64,000 nt of DNA from Thiohalorhabdus denitrificans (lineage in GTDB: Bacteria > Pseudomonadota > Gammaproteobacteria > Thiohalorhabdales > Thiohalorhabdaceae), in NCBI RefSeq assembly GCF_001399755.1, contig NZ_LJCP01000010.1, positions 1 through 64,000 of the forward strand, written 5' to 3'. The position numbers were made by a program, and so were the translations under genes. This document shows positions 5,701 through 53,818 of the stretch, piece after piece. The notes beneath the pieces were generated by a model. The model was not told the origin of the DNA. It worked only from the letters and a program-made list of their open reading frames with translations, and made no database searches. Position 1 is the first letter of the stretch. Each line of letters starts with the position of its first letter.

Positions 5701-5966
5701 TTGACCATCCGTATCCTGCATACCGCTGACTGGCAGATCGGGAAGGGCTAGGGGCAGATCCCGGGTTACGATGGGGCCGCTCTTCGCAACCAGCGCCTGG
5801 AGACCCTGAGTGCCCTGGCGAGCTGGCCCGCGCGGAAGGCGAGGGGCGTTGTGCTGGTGGCCGGGGACGTCTGCGATACCCAGTCGGTGAGGGACGGCAT
5901 CATCCACCAAAGCCTCGAGCGGCTCTTCGGCCAAAGAACCCAAAAATACTGGAAGTTCCAATGGTG
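5701..5966 (+). pseudogene. Truncated SbcD/Mre11-like exonuclease relic
   Basis: Reading from TTG at 5701 gives [16 protein letters not shown], a TAG stop (5749-5751), then [19 protein letters not shown] and later [19 protein letters not shown] before the final [13 protein letters not shown] and the GD-V-x-DT block are the first two metal-binding motifs of calcineurin-like DNA repair exonucleases such as SbcD. Only the first 85 or so residues remain, with one in-frame amber stop, and the sequence then runs straight into the next gene, whose ATG overlaps its end. It is a dead 5' stub, perhaps left when the helicase operon replaced the rest. Confidence 0.65.
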
Positions 5967-12391: not shown

Positions 12392-12436
12392 CCCTCCTAT
12401 CAATGTTTGAACTTAATACCTAAAAGGATGGCTTGG

Positions 12437-22700: not shown

Positions 22701-22970
22701 AACGACTTGATTCCGTTCTGGATTGCTCCAGGGCCTTTCAAGGTGCAGCGCCATGTGCCGGCGCTCCCCTACACCCGGGAGGTGGAAGCTTTCCGCCGCC
22801 TGAAGCATCAGTTGGCTACCTACCGAGTGGTCTTCGGCCAGCCCAGGCAGGAAGAGCTTTTGACCATGCTGGGGGAGGCGGACGTATCCACCGAGCAGCT
22901 CAGTGAGTGGACAATCCAGCTCAGCCCCACACGGGCCCTTCTCAACCCCGGAAATATGGATTATCCATGA
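19779..22970 (+). CDS. Superfamily 2 helicase of the DUF6361/PLD module
   Basis: The 1063-residue ATPase begins at GTG in a four-base overlap with the PLD gene. Motif I is VADEVGLGKTLVARG (near residue 45), motif II is VILDEFQRFK (near 268; DEFQ in place of DEAH), then TLLLSATPYKLYT. The second lobe has TSVGQEGLDFHPWCHRLVHW (near 893) and DLEQREGRIHRYKGH, a SNF2-like motif VI. It lacks obvious extra domains. With DUF6361 and the PLD protein it likely forms a DNA-tracking nuclease complex. It is not a close copy of the first helicase at 5961, so the locus holds two different motor proteins. Confidence 0.85.
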   Translation: MSRPDPEAILAPLKSFQRRTVDHAFHRLFEAEGSTRRFLVADEVGLGKTLVARGIIARGLDHLWDTTDRIDVIYICSNQNIARSNLPKLQVTGQAEDAEAHATRLTMLATEMAPEKRQADGKEGSLPKANFVSFTPGTSFDLRSSGGKSEERQVLYWLLEEVVPAKTGLKNLLQGWVGTERWRQALRSSWPLEPGIKERFQQRVQADERLLGELEAAIDRWFLQGPEGYPNGEYPDEARRKRDRLTGQLRQHLAEVCIEALEPDLVILDEFQRFKTLVNQDEAGPDAAAKLAQRLFHTRNARGEPVHTLLLSATPYKLYTADAEEEDNHYRDFLATTRFLLDYDEVRVAVLEERLAAFGRELKRAAKGQSHDVVAARQAAEECLQAIMARTERVAASDEQDAMVEEHGTDLSLAPGDVRQYLAADAWFTAVGDRDPMAYWKAGPYLPHFMQGYKVNERVREAREGQPDKLKRVLDSYPDAFLDRNALARWERMDPSHAKLRSMVNELLDTGLWKLLWMPPSLPYWSLGGPFQGQDHRTKTLLFSAWNFVPDVVSGVLSYEAERRMTGGALKDYWEQRSPLLRLGEQNRTRSRHRLLLLLMPSTVLADCAHPLAAPEGADVRGWVRGRIEAMLGELDWQADPAEEPDPRWEYMAPLLLDPGLRDFLQYWASASPEETGKPNPDVLPAYLQDLLELDPASLGPQPEGLAEHLTDLALGAPGVIATRTLGSAALSDQKRRTLATRFAQAYWNLFNRPAVMSLLEQLEGREGALGEHVYWRRVLRYCIDGNLQAVMDETWHLAWEQHAWSKEAPADKVAEVCVEELAARIDPRPTRVHAHFLQPDGNGGLEPNTLRIRTTFAQRFGDLRTEEGMVSQDAIRAAFNSPFRPFVLTSTSVGQEGLDFHPWCHRLVHWNLPGNPVDLEQREGRIHRYKGHAVRRNVADQFGKDARAGWAPGADLWELLFSVADRSAREKGANDLIPFWIAPGPFKVQRHVPALPYTREVEAFRRLKHQLATYRVVFGQPRQEELLTMLGEADVSTEQLSEWTIQLSPTRALLNPGNMDYP

Positions 22971-35563: not shown

Positions 35564-36079
35564 TCAGTACCCCAGCGCCAGGATCCGGTACATGGTCATA
35601 AGATGGCGCACGTCGGCCTCGGCGCGGTGCGGCTGCCATCCCTCGGCCTGCATCCGTTTCCAGGCCGCGGCGTCGGCCTGCTCGATGCGCTCCGCAGGGC
35701 CGCCCGCCAATAAGCCTTCCCAGAGCCGGTCCACATCCTGGAGCCCGAAAGCGGGCTCCCATTCCGGGTCGGCGAAAAGCTCCCCGAGCCACATGCCGTC
35801 GTAGTGGATCGCGGTGCAGTAGGCGGTGCGGCCGGCCAGGGCCTCGTTCATCCGGCGGGCCACCCGATCCGGAGGCTCGCCGTGCGCGGCCAGGTAGTCC
35901 CGACTGAGGCCGTGCATCATCCATGCGGTGGTGTCGATGGGGTCGTCCCACTCTGGGATGGGGGTGGGGTCGATCAGGTGGGCTTCCACCGCGCCGGTTT
36001 GCGTGTCGCCCCAGGCCACCTCCAGGGGGTAGCTGGCCGGGCCGAGGCCGGAAGCCTCGAAATCCAAAAAGATCGGCAT
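35564..36079 (-). CDS. DEDD-type 3'-5' exonuclease, copy 2
   Basis: The 171-residue protein carries the exonuclease motifs MPIFLDFEASGL (DxE), the middle YDGMWLGELF region and PHRAEADVRHLM (HxxxD). This is the DEDDh layout of DnaQ-like enzymes that remove nucleotides from 3' ends of DNA or RNA. It is a neighbouring paralogue of the gene at 36081; they share layout and many blocks (HGLSRxYL near residue 55). The two genes are separated by one base, pointing to tandem duplication followed by divergence. Confidence 0.75.
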   Translation of the reverse strand: MPIFLDFEASGLGPASYPLEVAWGDTQTGAVEAHLIDPTPIPEWDDPIDTTAWMMHGLSRDYLAAHGEPPDRVARRMNEALAGRTAYCTAIHYDGMWLGELFADPEWEPAFGLQDVDRLWEGLLAGGPAERIEQADAAAWKRMQAEGWQPHRAEADVRHLMTMYRILALGY

Positions 36080-36080
36080 T

Positions 36081-36590
36081 TCAGCCCTCCAGAAGGATTT
36101 TCCGGGTCTCCATCAGGTGGCGCACGTCGTTCGCGGCCCGGTGCGGGTGGACGCCCTGGGCTTCGAGGCGCTCCCAGGCCAGGCGCTGGGCCTCTTCGGC
36201 CCAGTCCTGGTCCTTGCGGGCAAGCTCCAGGAAGTGCGCCTGGGCGTTCCGCCACTGGATGGAGGCGATCACGCCGCGGGTCCGCAGGGTCAGTTCGTCC
36301 ACCCAGCCCTTGTCATCCCAGGCCGTGGCCATTGCCACCTCGCCGGAGAGTTGGCGCAGGACTTCCTTGGCCACCTGGCGCGGCGGCAGGCCGTGTTCCC
36401 GGAGATAGCCCCGGCTCAGGCCATGGACGGCCTGAGCCGCCGGATCCCAATCGGTCCAGGTCTCCACCCCGGTCGGGTCGATCAGGTAGCTGCGGATGAT
36501 GCCGGTGTCCGGGCAGCCCCAGGCCACCTCGATCGGATAGCTGTAGGTCTCATCGAGGCTGGCCGCCTCGCAGTCGAGGAAAAACGGCAT
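36081..36590 (-). CDS. DEDD-type 3'-5' exonuclease, copy 1
   Basis: About 169 residues from MPFFLDCEAASLDETYSYPI. Motifs are FLDCEAAS (DxE), WDDKGWVDEL in the middle and PHRAANDVRHLMETRKIL (HxxxD). The first motif has Cys between the two acidic residues, as some DnaQ relatives do. Copy 2 follows after a one-base gap. The pair may form a heterodimer or act on different substrates. The start is placed at the internal ATG because the exonuclease fold begins there and a GAAAGGCC sequence precedes it. Confidence 0.75.
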   Translation of the reverse strand: MPFFLDCEAASLDETYSYPIEVAWGCPDTGIIRSYLIDPTGVETWTDWDPAAQAVHGLSRGYLREHGLPPRQVAKEVLRQLSGEVAMATAWDDKGWVDELTLRTRGVIASIQWRNAQAHFLELARKDQDWAEEAQRLAWERLEAQGVHPHRAANDVRHLMETRKILLEG

Positions 36591-36648
36591 GGCCGGCCTT
36601 TCTGGGCGGCAAAAGAGGGGAGGTAGGAGGAGGAAGGGTTCCGGCCTC

Positions 36649-37617: not shown

Positions 37618-38500
37618 GTGCGCCAGGCGAAGCTCAGACGCCTGGGATTGGAATAGACCATGAAAAGGTGTGCTGGAACCCTGAGGGTTGCAAACCCTCC
37701 CGGCCAAGGCTAGCCACCAGCCGGAAACCAGCCTTGCGCGTCCTCGGGCAACCGATGACGTGAAGCGTAGGCGGTGAGCGGGCAGGCCCTGTATGGAGCC
37801 GCGAAAGGAGCGGATTGCGGGAGCCGACGCTGTTCCATTAGCGGAAGGCAATACGGCTCGGCTGTACCGGCTTGGTCGAGTCACCCGCCGCGGTCTAAGA
37901 CCAGGGCATGTTCGCAGTGGGGTTCCCTGGGAACCTGGGAGGTCCTGTCGCTCCCACCGTACGAGCGCGGTTGCGGGCCACCGGTCGGAAGGCCCAGGCC
38001 CCTGGTTGGTGCGCCGCGACCAGCGGGAGCGAAACGCGGGCGCAGCGGTGGTACCAGACGGCGAGGGGAGACCGAAGCCGCTGGGATGGGCGGCAGGAAG
38101 TCGGAGCAGCCCGTAGTACCAAGGAAGCCGGGGAAGCCGCCCCGGGCGACCCGGTGGAGGAAAGGGGCTGCCGGGCGATGGAACTGCTGGAGGGAACGAT
38201 GCCCGAAACCAAGGATTCGGATCCCATCTCCTCGAGACTCCAGCGGATAGCGGCCATTGCGGAGGCGCACCCGGACGAGCCGCTTAATCCGCTTGCCCAC
38301 TTCATCGACGAGGCTTGGCTGTTTGCAGCCTTCCGGCGGACCCGCAAGGACGGGGCGCCGGGTGTCGATGGGCAGACCGCGCAGGATTATGTCCGGGAGC
38401 TTCCGGACAATCTCCGATCCCTGCTGGATCGGGCCAAGTCGGGCACGTACTGGGCGCCACCCGTTCGCCGGGCGGAGATCCCCAAGGGCGATGAGCGGGT
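37618..38500 (+). mobile_element. Group II intron, 5' part only
   Basis: The segment starts with GTGCGCC, the classical intron 5' end. It contains some 560 bases of GC-rich, stem-forming RNA-like sequence (for example CTGAGGGTTGCAAACCCTCC), then the beginning of an intron-encoded reverse transcriptase. The rest of the reverse transcriptase, domain V and the 3' end are missing, replaced by an IS1380-type fragment in opposite orientation at about 38495. The intron cannot splice or move on its own. Confidence 0.65.
38178..38500 (+). pseudogene. Group II intron reverse transcriptase, N-terminal fragment
   Basis: From the ATG at 38178 the frame reads LNPLAHFIDEAWLFAAFRRT, RKDGAPGVDGQTAQDYVREL and PPVRRAEIPKGDE. 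The G-A-P-G-V-D-G and IPKG blocks are the first signatures (RT0-RT1) of group II intron reverse transcriptases of the LtrA type. About 107 residues survive; the polymerase core with the catalytic YADD and the maturase domain are gone. Confidence 0.8.
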
Positions 38501-39075
38501 AATAGACCCGCCCGCCGAGGTGGCCGTTGTAGGCCGAGGCGGCCTGGTGGCCGGCGACGCCGATGGCCATGCCGTCGAAGTCCAGGATCAGGCGACGCTT
38601 GCGGTGGCCGCCATTGGCGGCCCGCAGGCGCTGGCCGGCCAGCCGAAGCACGGCCTCGTGGAGCACGGCCCGGTAGGCCTCGGTGGTCAGCGTACCCAGC
38701 AGACGGGACAACGTCGGCTGCGAGGGCGGGGCCACCTCCAGCGGGCTCAGTCCCCGATGACCGCTGCCGGTGACCCGCAGCGGCGGATCATTGGCTTGGC
38801 CCTCGGCGTCGGCCAGATCGCCCCAGCCATGGGCGAGCAGACCGATCACAATGCGCATCTGGTCGGGCAGCGGGTGCGTGACCTGCCCGGGATCCCGCGG
38901 ATCGGCGAGTCGTTCCCCCAAAAAGCTGAAGGTGCCGGCTCGTTCCAGGAAATTGCAGACCAGCAGCAGTCCGGCGTCGCTGCTCTGGTTGGATTCCCGG
39001 GCTTCGACGACCACGGACCGGTTGAACGAAGGACGGAGCAGTTCTACGCTTTCACCCGTGGCGTGAGGCTTCTCC
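38496..39075 (-). pseudogene. IS1380-type transposase, N-terminal fragment
   Basis: On the minus strand the frame reads SFNRSVVVEARESNQSSDAG, DQMRIVIGLLAHGWGDLADA, SQPTLSRLLGTLTTEAYRAV and LILDFDGMAIGVAGHQAAS, then YNGHLGGRVYYPLIA. D-x-D after the hydrophobic strand and the Y-x-P-L-x-A block are typical of IS1380-family DDE transposases. The C-terminal half is lost where the frame meets the intron remnant. The junction lies within GGCGATGAGCGGG, which fits both partners and suggests joining at a short homology. Confidence 0.7.
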
Positions 39076-39418
39076 CTTGTATCTTTGGCTTGGACACATC
39101 TGATTATAAAGGGAAAGGTCCTCACGCCATACTTTTGTCTAGGGCCCGCGATGAATGAGGACGGAATTAGCGACAAAATCTGACGTCTCGTTCTGGAAAA
39201 TCATTTTGGAGCAGATGTCTTGTCACCTAGGACAGAGTTCGATATCACTGGTGCCCACCAAGAAGCCTGGTGTGAGGTGGTTGGTGCTGGTCGGTTTATG
39301 TGGAGAAGGGCTAAGCAAGTACCGCACTATTGCTGAAAAAAGAAATTCTTCAAAAAAACCGACGTTAGTTAAAAACAGTAGCACGAAACGAGAAAAGTCA
39401 ATAGGAGAGAGGGGAGTA

Positions 39419-40510
39419 ATGGAAGATCAAAGTTTTAACGAAGAGGACTTCAAAGGGAAATTCAAGGAGGAGTATAAAAAATACCGCTCCTCAATAAGTA
39501 AGCCAAATATCCTTGTTATGGGCGGAACAGGAACTGGAAAAAGTTCCTTGGTAAATATGGTGTTTGGGGAGGAAAGGGCCCAAGTAGGGGCCGGAGAGCC
39601 TGTTACAAGTGGGATTAAGCCATATGAAAGCGAATTTGTAACAATTTACGATAGTGAAGGTTATGAGTCGGGGAAAGAAAACCAAAATAAATATAAAGAA
39701 AATATTGTAAAATTTGTTACAGATAGAGAAGGGAAATTAGAAAAGCAGATCCACTTGGTATGGTATTGCATTAGTTTTGCGTCCCATAGAATTTGGGATA
39801 TTGATATAGAGCTTGTAAAAGAAATTAAATACAAAAAAATCCCTATCGCAGTTATATTTACACAAGCTGATGTTGTTTCGGATGAAGATGCAGAAAAATT
39901 GATACAGACCTTTAAGGAAAGTTGCCCTGGTGTTCCTGTTTTTGAGGTATCAAAAGATCCCGAGCTTGGTCTCAGTGTAGAAGACTTAATAGATTGGGCA
40001 TATGAAAACATTGACGAATCAGTACGGCATGCGTTTATTACCGCAGTTAAAAGAGGTTTTAATAAGAAGAATGCAGAAGCCAAGAATGTAATCAAACTAC
40101 ACTCAGGAATAGCAGCTTCGAGTGCAGCAACCCCCGTCCCATTCTCAGATGCTCCGCTATTAGTAGCTAACCAAGTCACGATGTTGGCAAAAATTACGTC
40201 TATCTGGGATATACAAGGTGTTGATTCTATAGTCTCCGGTGGAACTCTTGGGCAAATATCAACTCAGGTGGGAAGAACGCTGGTTGGTAACCTAGCAAAA
40301 TTGATTCCTGGAGCTGGACAGGCAGCCGGATATATTATAAATGCATCGGTGGCCTCAGGATTAACTGCTGCAATCGGTTGGGCTGTTAATGATCTTTGCT
40401 ATAGGTATAAGAAGGATATGCTTGACGGAAAGAATGTAGATATCCAAAAATACTTTGATTCAGAAGTTTTGCAAGAACTTATTAAACAATACATGAAAAA
40501 GGAACTTTAA
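39419..40510 (+). CDS. Era-like GTPase with DUF697-like C-terminus
   Basis: The 363-residue protein has GTPase motifs ILVMGGTGTGKSSLVNMVFG (P-loop), a Thr in PVTSGIKPYE (switch I), TIYDSEGYESG (DxxG) and AVIFTQADVVSD (TQAD in place of NKxD). The C-terminal 150 residues are small and hydrophobic (GIAASSAATPVPFSDAPLLV; LIPGAGQAAGYIINASVASG) like DUF697 domains, which associate with membranes. The ATG has GGAGAGAGGGG upstream. It is strongly AT-rich compared with the island. One base separates it from the next GTPase gene, so the two make an operon. A membrane-linked switch or defence role is inference. Confidence 0.8.
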   Translation: MEDQSFNEEDFKGKFKEEYKKYRSSISKPNILVMGGTGTGKSSLVNMVFGEERAQVGAGEPVTSGIKPYESEFVTIYDSEGYESGKENQNKYKENIVKFVTDREGKLEKQIHLVWYCISFASHRIWDIDIELVKEIKYKKIPIAVIFTQADVVSDEDAEKLIQTFKESCPGVPVFEVSKDPELGLSVEDLIDWAYENIDESVRHAFITAVKRGFNKKNAEAKNVIKLHSGIAASSAATPVPFSDAPLLVANQVTMLAKITSIWDIQGVDSIVSGGTLGQISTQVGRTLVGNLAKLIPGAGQAAGYIINASVASGLTAAIGWAVNDLCYRYKKDMLDGKNVDIQKYFDSEVLQELIKQYMKKEL

Positions 40511-40511
40511 A

Positions 40512-41636
40512 TTGGAAAAAGCAAATATCTTGGTGTTAGGAAAATCTGGGGTGGGGAAATCGGCACTTCTAAATTATTTGTGGGGAGAAACCATTGCAAA
40601 AGTTGGGAGTGGGCGTCCCGTAACCCCAGAGGCCTCGGAAAATGAAACAGGCATTTATTCATATGACCCATTAGAATTCGACGGGGTGAGGTTGGTAATA
40701 AATGATAGTTGGGGTATGGAGGCTGATAAGGCTGATAAGTGGCGAAAAATTATTGATAAGCAAATAAGAGATGCCGAAAAATCATCAAAAATCTCGGGGT
40801 GGTTTCATTCAATAATATATTGTTTGGACGCCGCCAGAGCTAGGTTGGAGGAGTTTGAGGTTGAGTCCATACTGAAACCTTTTTATGAAGCGGGTAATAC
40901 TGTTGTATTCGTTCTAACAAAATCGGATATTGCTTCGGAGGAAGAGAAGGGGGGGATGGCTCGTTATATTAATGAGATGTTTCCTGACAATGGGGGAGTA
41001 TATGAAGTATGTAATATTAACCAAACCCTAAGAGGAGGAAGAGAGAAGAACACCTTTGGCAAAGAAGAGGTTCTTACCGGGGTATTGAAAAGCGTGAAAG
41101 GAAATTTAAGCAGGAAGATTGCAAGTAATTATGTGTCACAATGTGAAATAAAAATAAAAGAGTGGCGGAGACTGGTTGTTAAATATTATGACGAGCGTCG
41201 GATTACGACTAAAGGTTCAATGGAAAAAGTTGATGGATATGCAAAGAAAGAGTTAAAGAACAAAATCTCTGAGCTGGATAAATGGCTGGAAATTGTGCTA
41301 AGCGACTCTATTAGATTGTTCGATGCCCTCGGTACGAATATAGGGCCCCAGGAATATAAAAAGTTAAAAGAGCATAGCATTAATATGAAACAAATTGGTT
41401 CGGGGGGGGTTGGCTGGGAAGGTGAAGTTGCTTTTGCAGATGCATTTATGTTTTTTGTTCCCGGTGTTAATTTGTTATGGGCATTTTTTAGGGGGGATAT
41501 TCATAGAGATGATTTGAAGGAAAAGTTGTCCGAAACGGAGAGAGAGTTTGTAAAAATTGGAAAAAAACAGTCAGTAAAAATTAAGGATGCTATTGAAGAA
41601 AAATTGGTTGTCCCCCAGCTTCCGCATATTTCTTAA
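40512..41636 (+). CDS. Second GTPase of an AT-rich pair
   Basis: The 374-residue product starts at TTG (MEKANILVLGKSGVGKSALL). Motifs are the P-loop GKSGVGKSALLNYLWGE, switch I Thr in RPVTPEASENETGI, INDSWGME for the DxxG region and VVFVLTKSDIAS (TKSD). The second half is a lysine-rich helical region, with a hydrophobic segment FADAFMFFVPGVNLLWAFF near residue 320 that could insert in a membrane. It follows the first GTPase after one base. The different C-terminal parts suggest the two proteins act together as a heteromeric switch. Base composition is as AT-rich as its partner and unlike all other neighbours. Confidence 0.8.
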   Translation: MEKANILVLGKSGVGKSALLNYLWGETIAKVGSGRPVTPEASENETGIYSYDPLEFDGVRLVINDSWGMEADKADKWRKIIDKQIRDAEKSSKISGWFHSIIYCLDAARARLEEFEVESILKPFYEAGNTVVFVLTKSDIASEEEKGGMARYINEMFPDNGGVYEVCNINQTLRGGREKNTFGKEEVLTGVLKSVKGNLSRKIASNYVSQCEIKIKEWRRLVVKYYDERRITTKGSMEKVDGYAKKELKNKISELDKWLEIVLSDSIRLFDALGTNIGPQEYKKLKEHSINMKQIGSGGVGWEGEVAFADAFMFFVPGVNLLWAFFRGDIHRDDLKEKLSETEREFVKIGKKQSVKIKDAIEEKLVVPQLPHIS

Positions 41637-41749: not shown

Positions 41750-43105
41750 CTATACCCGGTCCTGATACGCCTGGAACGTCTCCGGATCGATTCCGTGGCC
41801 GATAGCTTCCGCGAGGCCGAGCCGGTCGAGCTCGCGGTTGGCCTCGATGATGATGCGGTCCCGGACGGAGACATCGTTCAGGGTCAGATGCTTCCTGAGG
41901 AATTGGTCACGGTCCCGGGGGTCGGCCTTCCCGTCCGCCACCGCCCCGACGAAACCCTTCACTAATTCGCGGATGGTGTTCCGGTGGTCCCTGGCCACCG
42001 ATTCCTTGCCGGCGATGGTCTGAAAGTAGGTCCGGTACCGCTCCACCGAGGACCGGTAGCCGTCAAGAAACACCCGGGTCATGATCGACGTGGTCCCGAG
42101 CTCGTAGAATTCCACCATCCCCCGCAAATACGCTTCCCGGTCCATGTTGAAGTAGGAGAGGGGGGCGAGTCCCTGCCGGAGGAGAGGAAGGTTGGCCGCC
42201 ATCCGCCCCGTTCTTTTGTTTACATCCAGGAAAGGTTGCAAATAGGGGACGGCTAGCAGGAGGAAAAACGCCTGCTCGTAGGGATCCGGGATTTCCGGGG
42301 CCTTTCGCCCAATCCCTTCGAACCCAGCCTCCACCGTCAGGAGGTCGGGGGAGGGGAAATAGGCGGTCCGGGCGATGGCGACCTCGCCGCCCCGGAGGTT
42401 GCCTTCCTCCTCGGGAGACTCGAGCAGATCGCGGGCGAGAAGTTTGTGCAGTCCTCGGAGGGTAGCCGTATTGGGTTCGAGGAGGGCCCGGTTCTTTACC
42501 AAAAAGTCTACGGTGTCGGCGTGGTTGCGGATCATCCGCGTCTCTTCCGCCGACCGCCCCTCCGCGGCCTCCCCCTTCTCGATCAGATCCTCGGTCTCGC
42601 CGAAGGTATAGGTATTCCCCTCGAGTAGCGAAGACGACCAGGCGGTGTCGATCATAAGCCGCCGGAAAACCGTCTGGTTGATGGTATCCCCGATTTCGAG
42701 AGAGGCGTCGGATAGCGCTCGGGCCTCCTCCGCGGCCTCTGGGGGAAGGAGGCGAGTCTCGCCAGGGATATAGGCCTCGATCCGCGCTGGGTGGAACCAC
42801 TTGAGGGAGCGCTTTCCGGGGTCAATATCGAGGTAGGCCTGGGCTACGGATTCTGTGTCCGGACGATACGTGGTCTGAGGCCCCTTTGGCCTCTTGTGGA
42901 CGAGCCCCGAGTCGACCAGGGCCGATAGGCGGCGGCTCAACTGCTGGCGCGTGCCGAACGGAACGGCCCCCTGTACCCGCTCAAGGATCGCTGACAGACG
43001 CACGGGCTCCCCGGCTCCGAGAAGGGCGGAAAGGATGGCTTCGTCCCCCTCCGGAAGACCGAGGTTGGCAATGATCTGCCGGATGTCGTTATCGGTCAGA
43101 TTCAT
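41750..43105 (-). CDS. Fic-family protein with Gln in place of active-site His
   Basis: A 451-residue protein with an N-terminal winged helix (TRQQLSRRLSALVDSGLVHK near residue 55) and a Fic domain. The inhibitory motif is present as SSLLEGN (S158-E162-G163). The catalytic loop, normally HPFxDGNGR, is QPFLDVNKRTGR (Q290 to R301): the His that activates the target hydroxyl is Gln, and Gly is Val. AMPylation as usually understood is therefore doubtful; a regulatory or other nucleotidyl role is possible. Related Fic proteins with QPF..VNKR exist as a subfamily, so this is probably not a random mutation. It is convergent with the GTPase pair. Confidence 0.85.
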   Translation of the reverse strand: MNLTDNDIRQIIANLGLPEGDEAILSALLGAGEPVRLSAILERVQGAVPFGTRQQLSRRLSALVDSGLVHKRPKGPQTTYRPDTESVAQAYLDIDPGKRSLKWFHPARIEAYIPGETRLLPPEAAEEARALSDASLEIGDTINQTVFRRLMIDTAWSSSLLEGNTYTFGETEDLIEKGEAAEGRSAEETRMIRNHADTVDFLVKNRALLEPNTATLRGLHKLLARDLLESPEEEGNLRGGEVAIARTAYFPSPDLLTVEAGFEGIGRKAPEIPDPYEQAFFLLLAVPYLQPFLDVNKRTGRMAANLPLLRQGLAPLSYFNMDREAYLRGMVEFYELGTTSIMTRVFLDGYRSSVERYRTYFQTIAGKESVARDHRNTIRELVKGFVGAVADGKADPRDRDQFLRKHLTLNDVSVRDRIIIEANRELDRLGLAEAIGHGIDPETFQAYQDRV

Positions 43106-43861: not shown

Positions 43862-44150
43862 TCTGCTCATTAGCTGAATCACTTTTTCACGTGCACTTCC
43901 TCCTGGGGGCAAGTGGGTTCTACTAAGTTTGCCCCTGGTCAGGAAATTGGGGAACAGGTTAATCTCGCCTTGGCCAAACTCCGGTTAACCCCATTTCCCC
44001 CTTATTTGCCAATAGCCACAAAAAATGATTTATGGGGGGGCGAAAACGGGCAACATTCTCCGCTTAAGAAAAATCAAGCTCAGGAAGAGCTAAGCTTCCC
44101 TGAGACCGGTGTTTTCAATATCCTTCCGCCACAAAAGGGGATTTCGGAAG

Positions 44151-47100
44151 GTGGATTGCACAACGTTCCTCAAAGAATTCCTCTTCACCCATGCACGCCT
44201 CACGGGCAAGGAGGCCCGAACCGACGCCCGAGGTTGGCCCCTTTACGCCTACCGTTGCTCGGAAAAGGCCTACCAGGATGTGATGGCCATCCTGAAGGAA
44301 GTATTACCCCAGGGCTTTCGCGGCAGCCCTCCATTGGGCTTGGAGGCGTGTTTCTGCCTTTTTGCGGCGGAAACCTTTCGCCGAGAGCATAGCGGAGGCT
44401 CCTGGACGTGGGCGACGGTCTTCGATCCGTTAGATATGGAGCCACCCAGCCATCCAGTAATCGGAGGTTGGGTGGAGCGAGGGTTAAAAAAATGGGGGCG
44501 TGAGGTCCTACGAGGGGCAGAAGGGCAGCGGCTTTTCCTGGCCACTATCGCCTGCGAAGGCGGCCTTCCCTTGCGGCTTTTACAAAAAGAAGGGGCCAAT
44601 CTCCGGACATTCTTCCGGCGCTTGCTCGAGGCCTATCACCAAAGTAGCGCCACCCAGAACGACATTGAGCGGCTCGCCAGAGAACATATCCGTTATCTGC
44701 CGAAAACCCTTCGTAACGAGGAAGTTGTCCGACTGGCGGCTAGCTTGATCGGTGGCACCGTTGACCTGCAGGACCAAGTTGGCGACGCCAGGGATCCCAT
44801 TGCCACCCTGGATGAGCAAGACCCGTACTGGCGTTTACAGCTACCGCTACGTCTTGAGGATGAGGTGGCTGCCTCCCTGTTCCAAAACCTGGTGGAGGAT
44901 TCCCGAACGATCGCCAGGGCTGCATCGGCCCGCCCTTTCTGGCACGGCACCCTGGTGGAAACGAGTCCGGGGCAATTCAGCCCACGAAAGGTGCTCCATT
45001 TTCCCGAACGGCTAAGCCGCCCCGATATCGAGCATTGGCTCGGCTCGTCGGAATACGCCCCACCCCGGATTCGCCTTCAATTGGAGACCCCGAGAGGACC
45101 CGAACCGGTTGCGGTTTTGACCCTGTTCCCCAGAGAGGGCTCGGAGGACATCTACCGTCGGGAGTGGCTCCGCCGGGATGGGGTGGTGCTTAAAGGGGCA
45201 GGGGTGGAAGAAACCCACGACATCCTTTTTCACGATGGCACCCAGGCGGTAGAAATCGACCTGCAAAACGGGATCCCCTGGGGGGAATCCCCCTGGGTTT
45301 TCTCGGAATCCACCCGGGAACGGGGATGGGTCTGGGTGGCGGAGGGCTCCGTCGATGCCCGCAGCGAAGAGGTCCTCGTGGCGATCCCGGCGTCCTGCCG
45401 GCCGGATCCAGCCTCTGACGCCAGCTGCGAACATAGGGGAGAATTAACCGAATCAGCTCGCCCCGTTTACCGTGTGCGGGGACGCGTTGACTTCTTCATG
45501 GAAGATGGTGCCCGCTACCGGATTCAATGCGGTGCCCCTCAGGATACGACCGAGCCACCCCGCCTTGGCGGCCCCCAGCTCACCGGGCTTTTAAACCAGC
45601 GCCCGGTGTTCCTGGGCATGCCCGGATTCTATGAAAATGCCGGATTTGGCCAACGCCGGGCCGCCAACGAGGAACCCCAGTGGCGTCCCGTCGGTGGAGA
45701 CACCGGCTGGAGCAGCAATTTCTCCGGTTGTCTGGGGCAGGTTTGGATCAGGCTTGTCGATTCCGTTACGGGTGTCGAGCGCCTCCGTCGCCAGGCGGAC
45801 GTGGTTCCCCCTGAAACCACCCTGAGCCACCAGCTCGGCTCCAAAGGGAAACCGGGTTATTACGTCATGAAGGGCCTGGCCCCTATGGAACCCAAGGTGG
45901 TTGAGCCCGGAACGGTTCACCTCGAGACGTGGGAAAGCACCAAAGACGAACTAACCCTTCGGTGTGATCCGGTCCAGAGCCATGCCTTGGCCCCCGTCCG
46001 GGTCCGCCTCTCGGTACCCGGAACCTATCCAGTAGAGCTTAAGCTTCCCTACCCACAGAAAGGAGCGATGTTCCAGCTCGAAGGCCATCGGGCAGAAGCA
46101 GGCGAGCTGGTTGCCCTCGACCGCCTATACGCCCTTTATCTCATTCTGCAGCACCCGAGCGGAACGGAACGGTTTTTCCTGGAGGCCGAACTCGTCCGCG
46201 GAGGCCATACCCTAGGTGAGCAGGGGTTCTCTGCAACCCTTCCGCCCATGGAAGGGGGCCGAATGGAAACCAATCTCGGTCCATGGGTCGATCAGGTCAA
46301 CCACTTGCTCGCCACAACTGACCACCCCAACGCCTTCGTTCGCCTGATGATCTGTTCTCAATGGGGCCAGGAGCTAACCAGGGTCCACGTTGCCCAGTAC
46401 GACATGGGAATTTACCCGGATCGGGAAGAAGAGACGATTGAGCTAGCTTACGCTGACATTCAAAGGCTTGGGGAAGACTGGTCATCGCGAATTTCGGTGA
46501 GCATGCTCCCCCTCTGGGAGCCGGGGCGGGAGCCCCGGTCACTTTTTCCCACCGACGACACCCCCGGTATCTGGCCCATTCCGGAGGATCTGGAGCCCGG
46601 CCCCTGGTGGGTCATCGCCCGGGACGGCGACTGGGCCAGATTCCGGCCGCTCCTGTGGACCGTTACGAACGGGCACCGCGAAGACATGGATGCGGAGACA
46701 GGCGGACTTTCGGCAGCGGTCCGGGAAACTGATTCGGACCGCCGGATCTACCAAATTGATGAGGCCCTTCAACGGCTTGGAGCGGAACCCGAGCACGAGG
46801 ACTGGGAACTTCTTCTGGAATACGTGGCGTTGGCCACGGAATTTTCTCCCAAGGCACTGGATCCTCTCAGGCGCCTCGTTCTCCATCCTACAACGCTCGC
46901 AATGGCCCTGTTGCGTGCCGACCAGGAACGCTTCGACCGGCTAATGCTTTTCCCCACGCAAATGTCCTTTGCCTGGGGCCTTTTACCGGTGGGTGCCTGG
47001 CACCAGGCTGCCTCTCGGTACTTCACTCAGCTGGGTGAGTCCCTGGTGGGAATCGACGGTGCCGAGGACATCCTGTGGCAAACCTTCACGGGGTTTCGGG

Positions 47101-47567
47101 AACGCGCTACGAAGGTGCGGCCCTATTTCGACTCCCTCTGCGACTGGCTCGGGGAAAGCCTTTTCCCCGGCCGCGGTCCAGCCAACAACTCGCTAAAGCT
47201 GACTCGTCAGATGCCGGCGGATTTCATCGACCACCACGTCGCCACGGAGATCGAGGCCCTTCAAGGCCGGCATGACGCCGACGAACGGTGGCCCACGGGG
47301 GCAGAGGTCATGGAGGCAGCGGACGGGGGCCTTCTGAGCGAGCGGTTCCGGTTTGCCGATGTGACCGGCATCCAGCGTCCGGTGAAATGTGCTCCCTTTG
47401 TCGCAGCCTCCTTTGCCCTGAACCACCACGGGGACCAAACTCCGGGGCTCGTCTACGAACTTCGCCTGATTCGCGGCTTCGACCATGAGTGGTTCGATCG
47501 GGCCTATTCCATCGGCCTGACTTTCGGCCTCGCAAAAGGCAGGGAAGAAATGAGGAAAACCTCGTGA
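44151..47567 (+). CDS. druH: DruH-like protein (type III Druantia)
   Basis: A protein of about 1139 residues directly before a DUF1998 helicase of about 2085 residues. The size, the N-terminal ARTDARGWPLYAYRCSEKAY block and the partner match the STY4851/ECs_5259 family, which serves as DruH in type III Druantia anti-phage systems. No catalytic motif is visible; the sequence is a long run of beta-rich and helical parts (for example RPVFLGMPGFYENAGFGQRR). GTG at 44151 is preferred, but an upstream GTG at 44109 is in frame and cannot be excluded. Its stop overlaps the helicase start by four bases (GTGA), so the two are translated together. The symbol is assigned from gene pairing and family resemblance. 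Confidence 0.7.
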   Translation: MDCTTFLKEFLFTHARLTGKEARTDARGWPLYAYRCSEKAYQDVMAILKEVLPQGFRGSPPLGLEACFCLFAAETFRREHSGGSWTWATVFDPLDMEPPSHPVIGGWVERGLKKWGREVLRGAEGQRLFLATIACEGGLPLRLLQKEGANLRTFFRRLLEAYHQSSATQNDIERLAREHIRYLPKTLRNEEVVRLAASLIGGTVDLQDQVGDARDPIATLDEQDPYWRLQLPLRLEDEVAASLFQNLVEDSRTIARAASARPFWHGTLVETSPGQFSPRKVLHFPERLSRPDIEHWLGSSEYAPPRIRLQLETPRGPEPVAVLTLFPREGSEDIYRREWLRRDGVVLKGAGVEETHDILFHDGTQAVEIDLQNGIPWGESPWVFSESTRERGWVWVAEGSVDARSEEVLVAIPASCRPDPASDASCEHRGELTESARPVYRVRGRVDFFMEDGARYRIQCGAPQDTTEPPRLGGPQLTGLLNQRPVFLGMPGFYENAGFGQRRAANEEPQWRPVGGDTGWSSNFSGCLGQVWIRLVDSVTGVERLRRQADVVPPETTLSHQLGSKGKPGYYVMKGLAPMEPKVVEPGTVHLETWESTKDELTLRCDPVQSHALAPVRVRLSVPGTYPVELKLPYPQKGAMFQLEGHRAEAGELVALDRLYALYLILQHPSGTERFFLEAELVRGGHTLGEQGFSATLPPMEGGRMETNLGPWVDQVNHLLATTDHPNAFVRLMICSQWGQELTRVHVAQYDMGIYPDREEETIELAYADIQRLGEDWSSRISVSMLPLWEPGREPRSLFPTDDTPGIWPIPEDLEPGPWWVIARDGDWARFRPLLWTVTNGHREDMDAETGGLSAAVRETDSDRRIYQIDEALQRLGAEPEHEDWELLLEYVALATEFSPKALDPLRRLVLHPTTLAMALLRADQERFDRLMLFPTQMSFAWGLLPVGAWHQAASRYFTQLGESLVGIDGAEDILWQTFTGFRERATKVRPYFDSLCDWLGESLFPGRGPANNSLKLTRQMPADFIDHHVATEIEALQGRHDADERWPTGAEVMEAADGGLLSERFRFADVTGIQRPVKCAPFVAASFALNHHGDQTPGLVYELRLIRGFDHEWFDRAYSIGLTFGLAKGREEMRKTS

Positions 47568-50500
47568 ACGCAGCCAAGCGGTTTTACGGCAACGCCGTCA
47601 ATCGGCTGGCAAAGGGGTCCAGCCAGGCCGTGCTCGGGTTGAGAGGATTTCGTAGCGAACCATTACGCGACCACCTTCGCGCCGAATTCCAGCAGGCCCC
47701 CGGTCATGGCAATGCTCTTCTCGCCGACCCCGTTTTCGAGGCCGCGTATGGGTGGGAGCCGTCGGGGCGCACGATGGCAGACCTTCGGGGGAATCTCCTG
47801 CACGGCGAAGCGATCAAGGCCCTGGCGAACCCTGTCCAGAAGGACCTGACGGAAGATTTCTCATTTCCCGAGGCCCGGCAACCTTTCACCCATCAGCTCC
47901 AGGCCTGGCAGGCCCTCAGGGACACGGAGAACGGGCGGCGTTCGGTGCTCGTCACCAGTGGCACTGGATCGGGAAAAACGGAGTGCTTCCTGGTCCCCAT
48001 CCTGGATGACCTGACGCGGGAACTGGCCGAGAACCAGAACGGCGGCCAGGAGGGTGTGAGAGCTGTCTTCCTCTATCCCTTGAACGCCCTGATCAAGAGC
48101 CAAAAGGAACGCCTTCAGGCTTGGTCGGAGCCCTTCGAAGGCAAGATTCGGTTCTGCCTCTACAACGGGGATACGCCGGACCAGGCCAAGAGTCCATGGC
48201 AATGCGAAGTACCAGACCGCCGGACCCTTCGAGATTCGCCCCCGCAAATCCTGGTCACCAACCCAACCATGCTGGAATACATGCTGGTGCGGGCGGAGGA
48301 TCAGCCCATCGTGGCGAAATCCCAGGGACGGTTGCGCTGGATCGTCATCGACGAGGCCCACACCTACCTGGGTTCCCAGGCTGCGGAACTCACCCTGCTT
48401 CTCCGCCGGACAATGCATGCCTTTGGCTGCGCCCCGGGCGATGTGCATATCGTGGCCACTTCCGCAACCCTCGGGAACGACGACGAGGCCTCCTGGCGGG
48501 AACTGGAACAATTCCTAGCAGACCTTGCAGGAGTGGATACCACCCAGGTCACGGTAATCGCCGGCAAGCGCGAAACACCGGAAACCCTGAGGGCCCGTCC
48601 GGATGCCGGGGACACGCCGCCATCCCCATCTTCCCTCGAAACCGAGGATGCCCGGTCCCTGTACCAGACGGTTTGCCAGGAGCCTGCCCTGGTCCGGTTG
48701 AGGGACAGCCTGGTTGAGCGGCCCCGAACACTAACCCAGCTTACCCATGTCCTGTTCGGGGAACAGGGCGCGACCAATCAGCAGGCAACCCTGGAGCTAC
48801 TCGACGCCTGCAGCCGTGCCAGAAATGAGCAGGGGCGCCCCTTCCTGCCGCTGAGAGGCCATCTCTTTCACCGAACCCTGCCAGGGCTCTGGGTCTGCGC
48901 CGATGCCCATTGCTCCGAAAAGGCGGGCACCCCCTTGGAAAAAGAGGACTGGCCCTTCGGCGCCGTCTACCTCGAACGACGGGAGCATTGTCGGTGCGGT
49001 ATGCCGGCCTTCGAACTAGTCCAGTGCATGGGTTGCGGGGCGGAGTATTTGCTGGCCCAGGAACGAGCCGGTAGGGGGGACGGGGAATATTACCTCCGGC
49101 CCGTCGAGGACCAGAACCCAGAGGACGAATTCCAGCAAGACCTAGAGCCGCTGGAATCGGAAACGGAGAACCAATCCGAAACACCCGAATGGGAAGCCGG
49201 GAGGGGCCTCCTCCGTCTAATCACGCCCGAGGACCATGCGACCCAGATCCAGGTGGGTCTCGGCCAGGACGGCCAGCTGGACTGGTCCGGCAACCAATCC
49301 CGGATCGTGAACCTGCGCGCCCCCGACGACAACGGTCTTTCCTGCGGCAACTGCGGCGATCACCAGGGGACGGGTCCCGCTGAGCGCCAGTTCCGGCCGG
49401 TTCGGGTCGGCGCCCCGTTCCTGCTCACTTCGACCACGCCGACCCTGCTCTCGTTACTGCCCGAGTCCGGAGAAACCAACACCGCGCAGCCCCTTGAAGG
49501 TCGTCGACTCGTGACGTTCACCGACAGCCGTCAGGGGACTGCCCGCTCCGTCATCAAGGCCCAGCAGCAGATTGAACGGGATTACGTGGGGAGCCTCATT
49601 TACCACAGTCTAGCCGCCAGCCGGGAAACCCAACCCGACACGGAGACCATTACCAAGACCAAAGACCAGATCGCCGCTCTGGAACAGGCGGTGGGTAGCA
49701 ATCCGAACCTTAAACAGCTCCTTGACGAGCAACGCGCCCGGCTGGAACAGCTGAAGACACCATCGGCCCCCGAACTGGGGTGGGAGGAGATGGCCGGCAA
49801 GCTCATTAGCGCCCAGGACTTCTCCACCTGGATGTCCCAGGATCTGCGCGAGCTCAGTTTCCGGAACCTGTCGGAACGAGACGTCGCCGACCTTTGCCTC
49901 TACCGGGAGTTCTTCCTACGTCCGAAGCGGCAATACTCCCTGGAGGGCCTCGGGTTCGCCCAGCTCCGTTATCCGGCTCTTGAATCCACCACGGTTCCGG
50001 CGGTACTCCAACAGAAGCAAGTCCCCCACGCGGAATGGGTCAACCTCCTTCGGCTTGCGCTGGACACCTTCGTCCGGAGCGGCGCCCCTTCGGTGGAGAT
50101 TCCGGCCAACGTCCGGCGCTGGCTCGGCTACCCTGGCAAGCCGTCCCTGCTTATTGCCCCCGATTCGGGCGACAGAAAAACCCATCCCGACCAACGTTAC
50201 TGGCCTTCCAGCGGCTCCCGGAACGCCCGGCGCAATCGACTGATTCGTCTGCTTTCCCACGCATTCGGCCTAGACCTTGACGAGGAATCGCACGCCCGGT
50301 TCCTCGACGAGGTTTTGACGGCGATGTGGAAGGCCCTAACGGGAACCGGGGTACTTTCCCCCACCGAAGGGGGCTTTCAGCTAAACCTCAAGAAAGCCGC
50401 CCGGATTCGTGGCGTGGAAACGGCCTGGCTCTGTCCGGTTACCCGGCGCCTTCTCCCCGTGACCTTTATGGGATTCACGCCCTATCTTCCCGACCTGCCA

Positions 50501-53500
50501 GCCCCCGACTCCCTGGCCGAGTGCAGGGAGGTGCCCATGCCGCAGCTTCCCTTTCCCTTTTGGCAGGGCGCGGACCAGACCGACCCGGAATCCTGGCTCG
50601 AAAGCGACGCCTCGGTTACTCATTTGCGCGTGCTGGGAGGCTGGACCGACCTAAGCGACCGGATCGCCCGATTCAGTCGCTACTATCGGGCGGCGGAGCA
50701 CTCCGCCCAGCTATCCGGGGCCGAGCTGACGCGGCGTGAACGGGAATTCAAAGAGGGCCGAATCAACCTGCTCAGCTGTTCCACCACGATGGAAATGGGC
50801 GTGGACATCGGTGGCCTCTCGGCAGTCGCCATGAACAACGTCCCGCCCCATCCCGCCAATTTCCTGCAACGTGCCGGACGGGCCGGGCGCCGGGGGGAGT
50901 CCGCAGCACTGAGTTTCACCCTTTGCAAGGCCACCCCACATGGGGAGGCGGTTTTCCGCAACCCGCTGTGGCCCTTCAATGCCGAACTGGCTACCCCGCG
51001 AGTTGATCTGCGGAGCATTCCCATCGTCCAGCGCCACATCAACGCCCTGGCCCTCGCCACCTTCCTGTCAGCGAATGGGCCCGACAGCGTTCCGCGCCTC
51101 CGGACAGGCTGGTTCTACGAAGCATCGGGGGAGGAGGACCAGCGTTCCACGCCAGCGGAGCGCTTCATTTACTGGTGCCGGGCGCCCGAGTCCTGGCCGA
51201 CGGATCTTCCCCGGGGTCTCAAATCGCTGACTCGGGGCTCTCAACTAGAGGGCATTACGGTTCAGGAATTGATGGATCGGACCGCCGAAGCCATGCAGGC
51301 AGTCTCCAGTGAATGGCTAAACGAGATTAGGGGGTTGCTCGCCCAATACCGGGAGCTGGCAACAAAGGATGGCCAGTCCAAACCCGAGATCGCCCTGAAC
51401 ATGCGGCTCGATCGCTGGCGCCGAGAGTACCTCCTTCGCCAACTGGCCAACCAGGCCTTCCTGCCAGGGTACGGATTCCCGACCGGCGTCGTTCCGCTGG
51501 TTACCACGACGGCCGAAGAATTGAACCGGGACAGGGCGAGTAATCCCCAGGGCGAACGCGAGGATAATCGCCAGCGCCGGGCCGGTTATCCTACCCGGGA
51601 TCTGGCCGTGGCCATGCGGGACTATGCGCCGGGGACCGACACCGTGCTAAACGGCCGGGTCTACCGGAGCAGCGGGGTAACTCTCAATTGGCAGCTACCG
51701 GTCGAAGCAGAGGGGGCCCCCGAGATCCAAGATTTGCGCTGGATCTGGCAATGCGCGGTGTGCGGCGCCAACGGTGTCAAACTCGCTCGGCCGGATACTT
51801 GCCCCGCCTGTGGCTCCGAGGCAGCGAAACTGCAAACGGACCGCTTCCTCCAACCCGCCGGCTTCGCCGTGGATTTTCGCTCCACGCCCCACAACGATGT
51901 CTCGGTACCCCAGTACATCCCCGTTCGAGAGCCCCTGATTGCCATGCACGGCGCGGAATGGATGATGCTCCCGAACGCTCCCCTTGGACGTTTCCGGACC
52001 ACCCCCTCCGGAACCCTTTTCCACCGATCCGACGGCATTAACGCGAATGGTTACGCGCTCTGCCTGCGTTGCGGCCGGGCCGATTCGATGACCGTGGACG
52101 GCGACCGGCCTTCCAGTCTGGACGGTCACAAACGCCTTCAAGGGGGGAAACTCAACGACCAGGAACGGGTGTGTCCCGGCAACGAGGAGAGCTGGGCCAT
52201 CCTGGACAAGGTCCTGCTTGGGGCCACCTATGCCACCGAAATCTTCGAGTTACAACTTCAGGACGCCTTCGGGAACCCGGTGAAGGACAGAGCAGCAGCC
52301 TATACGCTGGGCGTAGCGCTCCGCCGGGCCTTCTGCAACCGGGTTGGCATCGAGGAAGGCGAGCTCGGAGCCACGGCCGCCGCGAGCCGTGACCAGCACG
52401 AGAACCGGACCCAGTCGTTGTACCTGTACGATACCGCCAGCGGCGGAGCCGGCTACGCCAGCCAGGTGCCCGGGGTCCTCCCCGAGCTGTTAAGAACAGT
52501 CAAGAGCGAGGTTCTTTCCTGCCCTAACGACTGCGACTCCGCATGCCAGGCCTGCCTCCTGACCTACGAGACCCAGTTCCAGGTCGACCACCTGAACCGC
52601 CACAAGGCATCGGAGGTCCTCACCGAGGAGTTCCTGGCCGCCCTCCAGCTCCCGGAAGAGTTACGACTGTTCGGCGAGCGGAGCCACCTCGAAATCGAGC
52701 CATTGGCACTGGCCGTGGAAAGGGAGTGGCAACGCCGTCCGTTTACCCAAATCCGGTTGTTCCTGGGGGGCTCGGCGAACGAGTGGGAACCCCTTCATTG
52801 GCGCTTCCTGGATACTCTCCGACGTTTGAAGACCGCCGATGTCGAGGTGACGTTAGTCCTGGACCGGGGTTGCCTGGAAGAGCTGGAGCAAAGTCAGCTG
52901 GACGAGTTGTTCGCCATCGCCGCCGAAACCGATGCTTACCTATACAGTCTCCCGGCCGAACCGCCAATCAGCGGAGACAGCCGCCTTCCGTTGGCGGTTG
53001 AAATCGCCGATTCCAACCACGTAAAGCGATGGGCCACGTCGGATCCGAAGGCTCTGGTGCCCGCCCCATTCTGGGGAAGCGGGGACACCGGCGCACGATT
53101 CATTCAATCTCCATGGCAGGGCGACACCCTGACCGAGTTAAAGACCGCCAACGCCATTCAACCGGAAGCCCTGAGGCCGCAACCAAGCCCCGGGGTCACC
53201 GAGCTGGAGATTACCCATCAGCTAGACGGCAGTCTGGAAGGCTTCGGAAGAAGGGCCTGGACTTTGATTACCGAACAGGTTCCAGATCTGGCCAGCCTGC
53301 TGTGGGGGGAGGCCGAGTTAAGCTATGTGGCGTACTCGGACCGCTATCTCCGGTCTCCAATACAGGTGGTCCTGATGGAGCGCCTGATTGCTGGGCTAAA
53401 GGATTATCCGGGAGGCTTGGGGGCAGGGACGGAGATCCATGTCCTGACAACCAAACTGGGAAAACCACATTTCCAGGAACCCAGAGCCTGGTCTCACGAT

Positions 53501-53818
53501 TGGCAGGATCGCCAGGACAGAGACGACGTCGCTCGCGCCGTGCTCACGGATAACCCCGGAACCGTTTGGTGGGAGGTAAAAGACCTTCACTCGGTACCTC
53601 ACGCCCGGATCCTGATTCTGGAGTGGACCGATGGCACTAAATGGGAAATTCGGCTCGACCAGGGAGTTGGTTACTGGCGTGAAGATTCTGCCCAGGTGGG
53701 CAGTTTCCCCTTCATGGCCTCAATCTCTCGCCAGGTAACCATTCTTGGGGAGGCCAATTTCCAGGTTCGCCCCCAGCACGCCCACCACCCGACTTTTTGG
53801 TACGCCTTGAAGAAATAG
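47564..53818 (+). CDS. druE: DruE-like DUF1998 helicase (type III Druantia)
   Basis: A giant helicase of about 2084 residues. Motif I is LVTSGTGSGKTECFLVPIL (near residue 130), motif II is WIVIDEAHTYLGSQAAEL (near 262), and the second lobe has STTMEMGVDIGGLSAVAMNN and FLQRAGRAGRRGES (near 1075-1115). A zinc-ribbon pair (CAVCG ... CPACG) lies near 1400. The DUF1998 region near 1620-1690 shows SGGAGYASQV and CPNDCDSACQACLLTYE, with the four conserved cysteines. The last 390 residues form an extra domain with a PLD-like flavour but no full motif. This is the layout of DruE, the helicase common to all Druantia types. GTG start is set by the four-base overlap and GAGGAAAA upstream. Confidence 0.85.
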   Translation: MNAAKRFYGNAVNRLAKGSSQAVLGLRGFRSEPLRDHLRAEFQQAPGHGNALLADPVFEAAYGWEPSGRTMADLRGNLLHGEAIKALANPVQKDLTEDFSFPEARQPFTHQLQAWQALRDTENGRRSVLVTSGTGSGKTECFLVPILDDLTRELAENQNGGQEGVRAVFLYPLNALIKSQKERLQAWSEPFEGKIRFCLYNGDTPDQAKSPWQCEVPDRRTLRDSPPQILVTNPTMLEYMLVRAEDQPIVAKSQGRLRWIVIDEAHTYLGSQAAELTLLLRRTMHAFGCAPGDVHIVATSATLGNDDEASWRELEQFLADLAGVDTTQVTVIAGKRETPETLRARPDAGDTPPSPSSLETEDARSLYQTVCQEPALVRLRDSLVERPRTLTQLTHVLFGEQGATNQQATLELLDACSRARNEQGRPFLPLRGHLFHRTLPGLWVCADAHCSEKAGTPLEKEDWPFGAVYLERREHCRCGMPAFELVQCMGCGAEYLLAQERAGRGDGEYYLRPVEDQNPEDEFQQDLEPLESETENQSETPEWEAGRGLLRLITPEDHATQIQVGLGQDGQLDWSGNQSRIVNLRAPDDNGLSCGNCGDHQGTGPAERQFRPVRVGAPFLLTSTTPTLLSLLPESGETNTAQPLEGRRLVTFTDSRQGTARSVIKAQQQIERDYVGSLIYHSLAASRETQPDTETITKTKDQIAALEQAVGSNPNLKQLLDEQRARLEQLKTPSAPELGWEEMAGKLISAQDFSTWMSQDLRELSFRNLSERDVADLCLYREFFLRPKRQYSLEGLGFAQLRYPALESTTVPAVLQQKQVPHAEWVNLLRLALDTFVRSGAPSVEIPANVRRWLGYPGKPSLLIAPDSGDRKTHPDQRYWPSSGSRNARRNRLIRLLSHAFGLDLDEESHARFLDEVLTAMWKALTGTGVLSPTEGGFQLNLKKAARIRGVETAWLCPVTRRLLPVTFMGFTPYLPDLPAPDSLAECREVPMPQLPFPFWQGADQTDPESWLESDASVTHLRVLGGWTDLSDRIARFSRYYRAAEHSAQLSGAELTRREREFKEGRINLLSCSTTMEMGVDIGGLSAVAMNNVPPHPANFLQRAGRAGRRGESAALSFTLCKATPHGEAVFRNPLWPFNAELATPRVDLRSIPIVQRHINALALATFLSANGPDSVPRLRTGWFYEASGEEDQRSTPAERFIYWCRAPESWPTDLPRGLKSLTRGSQLEGITVQELMDRTAEAMQAVSSEWLNEIRGLLAQYRELATKDGQSKPEIALNMRLDRWRREYLLRQLANQAFLPGYGFPTGVVPLVTTTAEELNRDRASNPQGEREDNRQRRAGYPTRDLAVAMRDYAPGTDTVLNGRVYRSSGVTLNWQLPVEAEGAPEIQDLRWIWQCAVCGANGVKLARPDTCPACGSEAAKLQTDRFLQPAGFAVDFRSTPHNDVSVPQYIPVREPLIAMHGAEWMMLPNAPLGRFRTTPSGTLFHRSDGINANGYALCLRCGRADSMTVDGDRPSSLDGHKRLQGGKLNDQERVCPGNEESWAILDKVLLGATYATEIFELQLQDAFGNPVKDRAAAYTLGVALRRAFCNRVGIEEGELGATAAASRDQHENRTQSLYLYDTASGGAGYASQVPGVLPELLRTVKSEVLSCPNDCDSACQACLLTYETQFQVDHLNRHKASEVLTEEFLAALQLPEELRLFGERSHLEIEPLALAVEREWQRRPFTQIRLFLGGSANEWEPLHWRFLDTLRRLKTADVEVTLVLDRGCLEELEQSQLDELFAIAAETDAYLYSLPAEPPISGDSRLPLAVEIADSNHVKRWATSDPKALVPAPFWGSGDTGARFIQSPWQGDTLTELKTANAIQPEALRPQPSPGVTELEITHQLDGSLEGFGRRAWTLITEQVPDLASLLWGEAELSYVAYSDRYLRSPIQVVLMERLIAGLKDYPGGLGAGTEIHVLTTKLGKPHFQEPRAWSHDWQDRQDRDDVARAVLTDNPGTVWWEVKDLHSVPHARILILEWTDGTKWEIRLDQGVGYWREDSAQVGSFPFMASISRQVTILGEANFQVRPQHAHHPTFWYALKK

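Follow-up and report, generated by a model that had tools for sequence, protein, structure and literature searches.

A conserved, mobile pair of GTPases with predicted IRG-like and GIMAP-like folds in a defence island of Thiohalorhabdus denitrificans, a probable undescribed defence or membrane-protection module

What are two adjacent, AT-rich GTPase genes doing inside a defence island of Thiohalorhabdus denitrificans? The genes, here called A and B, lie in the window analysed, a stretch of 64,000 nucleotides of contig NZ_LJCP01000010.1. The first-pass annotation placed them between mobile-element debris and a Fic gene, and the flanking features bear this out, with a group II intron and a broken transposase upstream and the Fic gene downstream:

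37691..37903, + strand: group II intron RNA domains, mobile debris beside the module (Rfam RF02005, 137 bits)
37881..39176, - strand: broken DDE_Tnp_1_4 transposase frame beside the module (Pfam PF13701, 3.5e-22, residues 49-236 only)
39419..40510, + strand: GTPase A, 363 aa, predicted IRG-like, with a G domain and a DUF697-type hydrophobic helical domain
40512..41636, + strand: GTPase B, 374 aa, TTG start, with a GIMAP/septin-like G domain, long helices and a hydrophobic tip
41750..43105, - strand: Fic protein (PADLOC SoFic), directly downstream of B on the opposite strand

GTPase A begins with an ATG at 39419, preceded by a good Shine-Dalgarno sequence (GGGGAG), and stops at 40510. A longer form, extended in frame up to 39155, gets no support from the alignment. 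GTPase B runs from a TTG at 40512 to a stop at 41636, leaving a gap of one base, and both genes are intact open reading frames, in agreement with the original description of two GTPases with one-base spacing. The module has 39.2% GC, versus 62.3% over 5 kb on each side, and is the lowest-GC stretch of the window. The sharp contrast in base composition that had been noted is thus real, but it is not unique to the module, since the stretches at ~2.0-3.0 kb and 15.0-16.5 kb are also AT-rich (45-47% GC). A search for terminal repeats around the AT-rich block gave nothing convincing, and a scan for promoters and terminators at the module stayed at chance level.

Some other genes of the island may merit attention in their own right. 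The two further AT-rich stretches hold an ORF with no Pfam match (2086-3297, 45-47% GC) and an IrrE/M78-like peptidase gene that adjoins Hma (15416-16255, 45-47% GC). Two related small genes lie in tandem at 35564-36079 and 36081-36600; they look exonuclease-like by eye, and the first has no Pfam match.

By sequence, A and B are distant paralogues that share 35% identity across their G domains, so that calling them dissimilar was right in part. Their G domains are nearest in sequence to those of Der, Era, EngB and septin. A housekeeping identity as Era, Der or YsxC is rejected by the scores against the NCBIfam equivalog cut-offs (YsxC 35.6 versus 124.5 bits, Der 30 versus 306.7, Era 27.8 versus 237). 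The source genome has one such pair only. No family member was found at stringent thresholds in two genomes of the same genus or in the remaining genomes of the 369 sampled from the class, and another search in the class gave weak G-domain matches only; as only a few candidates were scored in each genome, the result sets a lower limit on presence. The suggestion that the two might be ordinary housekeeping GTPases in relatives therefore failed, on the low scores and on the lack of matches in the same-genus genomes at stringent thresholds.

GTPase A carries the following elements, with conservation counted over 28 family members:

39521..39544, + strand: G1/P-loop GGTGTGKS, residues 35-42; G35, G38, G40 and K41 invariant in 28/28
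39650..39667, + strand: G3 DSEGYE, residues 78-83; D78, G81 and E83 invariant; an aromatic residue where the catalytic Gln usually stands
39788..39790, + strand: Arg124, candidate trans arginine finger by analogy with the paraseptin literature; R in 25/28, K in 3/28
40016..40423, + strand: helical/DUF697 domain, approximately residues 200-335; AF2 helices; Pfam DUF697 in 21/28 members

The G3 motif reads DSEG or DTEG in 17/28 members. The AF2 model of A (mean pLDDT 86) consists of a G domain and a helical domain, and the 30 best Foldseek matches to it are all vertebrate IRGs (immunity-related p47 GTPases; E 2.7e-11). In VIA-align, the IRGs are nearly the sole matches that cover both domains (residues 21-340, Z 17-18, rmsd 4.6-5.6), and the G domain by itself is matched just as well by EngB and Era. 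A profile match of A to PDB 1tq6 reached 4e-8. The Pfam IIGP family is reached by 2/28 members (best E 3e-4) and not by the A of the window. A resembles the vertebrate IRGs in its two-domain layout and in a fold match over both domains, but it is a bacterial protein, 14-19% identical to them, with a DUF697-type domain. In its predicted structure A has the G-domain and helical-domain fold of the IRGs, which is a statement about fold only and not about family membership. The DUF697-like membrane domain first proposed for A is weak when the window protein is taken by itself (E 0.022) and firm across the family (E<=0.001 in 21/28 members). The helices are only mildly hydrophobic; membrane association of the pair is plausible.

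GTPase B shows the lysine-rich helical region and the hydrophobic segment that had been described for the second GTPase, at residues 184-272 and 306-324, respectively:

40539..40562, + strand: G1/P-loop GKSGVGKS, residues 10-17
40704..40721, + strand: G3 DSWGME, residues 65-70, family signature DSWGLE; D65, G68 and E70 in 27/27
40842..40844, + strand: Arg111, candidate trans arginine finger; R in 26/27
41061..41327, + strand: long lysine-rich helices, residues 184-272 (AF2, pLDDT ~70-94)
41427..41483, + strand: hydrophobic tip, residues 306-324; hydrophobic 19-mer here in 19/27 members; low model confidence

The tip is missing from the other 8/27 members. The AF2 model of B (mean pLDDT 80) has a G domain, two long helices, the hydrophobic tip, which is modelled poorly, and a return helix. 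Foldseek places GIMAP7 at the top of its matches, with BDLP, Toc34 and EHD2 within the first ten. The AIG1 profile matches 20/27 B members, some reaching E 8e-10, and the B of the window, at 21.0 bits versus 27, is below the curated (Pfam gathering) cut-off. B is thus similar to the GIMAP/AIG1 and Toc34 paraseptins in its best fold match and in the placement of its arginine, which is that of the R-finger paraseptins, but its C-terminal helices and tip differ. The combination of a GTPase, long helices and a hydrophobic tip also recalls the bacterial dynamin-like proteins DynA, BDLP and IniA, although the proteins of the pair are about half the size and the VIA-align matches of B are limited to the G domain.

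Motifs G1-G4 are intact in both proteins. Where a catalytic Gln would normally follow the DxxG of G3, both families have Y/F or L/M/I, and beta-4 is followed by a basic residue within R-x-x-D/E-x-D/E (R/K in 28/28 A members, R in 26/27 B members). This is the position of the arginine that lies at the G interface in paraseptins, and it may act in trans in A and B as well. G-interface dimers are formed by Toc34, by the GIMAPs and by those septins that have this arginine; the arginine of the Chlamydomonas septin extends into the GTP pocket of the facing subunit (PMC11238149). The replaced Gln and the conserved Arg, placed as in the G-dimerising paraseptins, suggest that the G domains of A and B make nucleotide-dependent contacts.

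The pairing itself is conserved. A scan of a genome collection with patterns from B alone found 38 loci, and an A homologue directly adjoins B in 34 of them. Since the adjacency recurs in independently fetched B loci, it exceeds chance, and the objection that homologues might never co-occur falls away. The usual order is A then B, reversed in locus L086, and the gap between the genes is -17 to +25 bases in 24/28 pairs, which implies translational coupling. The distance matrices of A and B are correlated, with a Mantel r of 0.81 for 26 pairs and of 0.73 for the 20 that remain without close kin, and none of 5000 permutations gave a value as high. Being coupled and co-evolving, A and B are likely to make heterotypic contacts. 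In a few cases (L106, L107) B has no adjacent A.

All paired A proteins form one clade of the tree and the solo A proteins a separate sister clade. The pairs come from at least seven phyla (Bacillota, Pseudomonadota, Myxococcota, Bacteroidota, Spirochaetota, Synergistota and Fibrobacterota), and these phyla are intermixed in the tree, indicating that the unit spreads horizontally. The module lies 18-23 GC points under its flanks in the window, L091 and L092, and Succinimonas and Ruminobacter have several pairs per genome. An all-against-all comparison of the neighbours found no family in more than 4 of ~25 lineages, antisense frames of the pair excepted. With no constant third gene, "isolated" is a correct description of the two-gene unit. 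It is close to certain that A and B form a real, conserved, mobile module. The adjoining mobile-element debris might have suggested an artefact, an AT-rich patch of decayed or spurious genes, but both reading frames are uninterrupted, no GTPase motif is lost and the homologues align over their full length across many phyla. This reading, to which we assign a negligible probability, is refuted by the conserved paired homologues.

A Brachyspira locus (L090 6604-12296) has three consecutive B-type genes, two with tandem G domains and one degenerate, followed by A, and a second cluster, A-like and diverged, is found in L108. A Sel1-repeat protein encoded 2.4 kb downstream of a Synergistales pair (L088 6350-8650) has a C-terminus that resembles the DUF697-type domain of A.

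The other 4/38 B loci have no A. They encode cyanobacterial proteins of 687-692 aa in which a class 3 lipase is fused ahead of a B-type GTPase; the lipase domain of the L070 protein matches Pfam at 7.1e-27. It is possible that the fusion is a lipid-degrading effector variant. The four genes are:

L070 6002-8065: cyanobacterial lipase-B fusion
L073 9020-11083: cyanobacterial lipase-B fusion
L081 9020-11083: cyanobacterial lipase-B fusion
L097 8990-11068: cyanobacterial lipase-B fusion

The pair is also carried by the Acinetobacter plasmid pXBB1-4 and by Klebsiella plasmids that acquired the same segment; B there has 233 aa and lies beside sul2. The shortened B of 233 aa occurs on Acinetobacter elements at L003 1265-1966 (beside sul2) and at L091 10028-10729, with A intact in both, so A without a full B is tolerated. 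A simple toxin-antitoxin pair is unlikely, since A persists with the truncated B on pXBB1-4 and B persists without an adjacent A in L106. Solo A genes are found on Klebsiella phage-plasmids, on IMG/VR viral contigs and on 5 kb mobilisable E. coli plasmids whose main cargo is the GTPase; the viral contigs have solo A relatives only and no B. Two of these solo genes are candidate exclusion genes, one from such an E. coli plasmid (L008 1-1176), where it is the main cargo, and the other from a Klebsiella phage-plasmid (L009 4944-6050). Such carriers, together with the Acinetobacter and Klebsiella plasmids that bear the pair, would suit a cargo that serves competition between mobile elements (superinfection exclusion, plasmid exclusion or addiction) instead of host defence. 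However, the paired A clade is separate from the solo A of phages and plasmids, and most pairs were found on chromosomal or large contigs, which makes a role of this kind distinctly improbable for the pair.

The window is a dense defence island with Hma, Zac, SoFic and Druantia III. SoFic is the Fic gene already listed, and the genes of the other three are located as follows:

5961-15280: HmaA, HmaB and HmaC
17932-22970: ZacB and ZacC, with a DUF6361 gene ahead
44109..53818, + strand: Druantia type III DruH and DruE

Defence genes thus surround the pair in the window, and elsewhere the contexts are mixed, only some being like defence islands, with many housekeeping genes among the neighbours. 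Regulators with a WYL domain, a type known from BREX and CBASS loci, occur no more than 5 kb away from the pair in 5/25 genomes. The 6 genes compare with 0.21 expected (Poisson P 1e-7), a signal that has P ~0.001 with three Flavobacteriaceae taken as one lineage and that concerns a family chosen after viewing the list of neighbours. For type I methylases no enrichment was seen around the pair (1/61), and among the matches listed a single genome has integrases at a distance of up to ~15 kb.

These contexts bear on the possibility that A and B are horizontally acquired regulatory GTPases of an unrelated process, such as trafficking, secretion or ribosome assembly. The kinship of the G domains to Der, Era, EngB and septin and the many copies in ordinary chromosomal contexts are consistent with it. 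But the scores are far below the housekeeping cut-offs, there are no constant partner genes that would suggest a pathway, and the lipase fusion and the WYL association fit conflict systems better; we regard such a role as very unlikely.

Several individual neighbourhoods deserve mention. In Christiangramia, RecD-, RecC- and RecB-like genes begin 8 bases past the pair (L093 12227-20426), and an AddB-like gene and another long ORF follow a Clostridium pair (L066 11674-17053). These are possibly guard arrangements, or due to chance. A reverse-transcriptase gene (L084 7641-8693) upstream of the intact pair of Acinetobacter chengduensis (L084 9944-12128) may be a retron or DRT defence neighbour.

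The statement that no described defence system has just this pair stands for the sources covered: PADLOC has no model for it, and a literature search in several wordings, which covered journal articles, few of them from subscription journals, and no preprints, found no description, so that this absence is weak evidence. The Eleos proteins LeoA and LeoBC are two dynamin-like GTPases encoded in one operon, an arrangement shared by the A-B pair. Eleos was rejected as an identity: the PADLOC matches span 70-90 residues around G1-G3 (best E 3.8e-5), and the LeoA/LeoBC models have 559/601 aa versus 363/374 aa for A/B. The DO-GTPase/GAP1 conflict systems, which often have two paralogous TRAFAC GTPases and are predicted to be membrane-proximal immune switches (Kaur et al. 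2020, PMC7159879), are similar in having paired paralogous GTPases. They too were rejected, as GAP1 and effectors are required there (PMC7159879) and the pair has no constant third gene. As for the DO family itself, which is marked by a Walker B glutamate, Pfam DO-GTPase gave no match for the pair among the matches listed up to E 0.1, and the G3 of A reads DSEG or DTEG in 17/28 members, as given above. Reviews group the GIMAPs with animal effectors related to antiphage systems (PMC11249213).

A more serious contender is a general membrane-stress or repair system, like the phage-shock YcjX/YcjF or DynA surveillance, that senses damage and stabilises the bilayer without being specific for invaders. 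In the phage-shock regulon, YcjX/YcjF links GTPase function to a DUF697 membrane domain. A has a DUF697 domain, the "YcjF family" domain of the annotators, DynA-type dynamins protect membranes and also delay phage lysis (PMC8844932), and the many loci amid housekeeping genes would likewise suit such a role. In YcjX/YcjF, DUF697 is a separate protein, and here it is fused to A, whose partner is a second septin-like GTPase. There is no YcjX-family match among the Pfam matches of A and B. A general repair function is also at odds with the patchy, mobile distribution of the pair, with same-genus genomes that do not have it, with its carriage on small plasmids and with its defence-island position in the window. 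On balance it seems unlikely as the explanation of the pair.

Taken together, the analysis suggests that the pair is probably an undescribed defence (or membrane-protection) module. The best explanation appears to be a mobile, co-inherited, membrane-acting heterotypic GTPase switch for defence against invaders, which we judge to be as easily wrong as right; a defence role as such is likewise about an even bet. A and B probably cooperate at the inner membrane. Action on the membrane is suggested by the DUF697 domain, the tip of B and the lipase fusion, and an invader as the trigger by the genomic context. A, with its IRG-like fold and DUF697 domain, would be the membrane-anchored partner, and B, with its GIMAP-like G domain, long helices and hydrophobic tip, the mobile one. 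A cue from a phage or other invader would bring A or B into the GTP state, and A-A, B-B or A-B contacts would then build a membrane-bound assembly. This assembly may disrupt the cell's own membrane, as in abortive infection, or may reinforce it and delay lysis, and hydrolysis through the arginine fingers would reset the switch.

A broader and unlikely proposal is that the pair represents a prokaryotic cell-autonomous immunity in which IRG-like and GIMAP-like GTPases regulate each other on a membrane. It would parallel the vertebrate networks, perhaps as their forerunner in kind, and its lipase-fused variants would destroy the membrane. Heterotypic control between immune GTPases is under study in mammals, which have many IRG and GIMAP paralogues. 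If the pair is defensive, it would add an undescribed system of two genes, would offer a very compact bacterial setting for such control between immune-type GTPases, and would bear on the origin of the animal immune GTPases. The module is widespread, mobile and missed by the PADLOC catalogue searched, and this holds even for a role in membrane repair.
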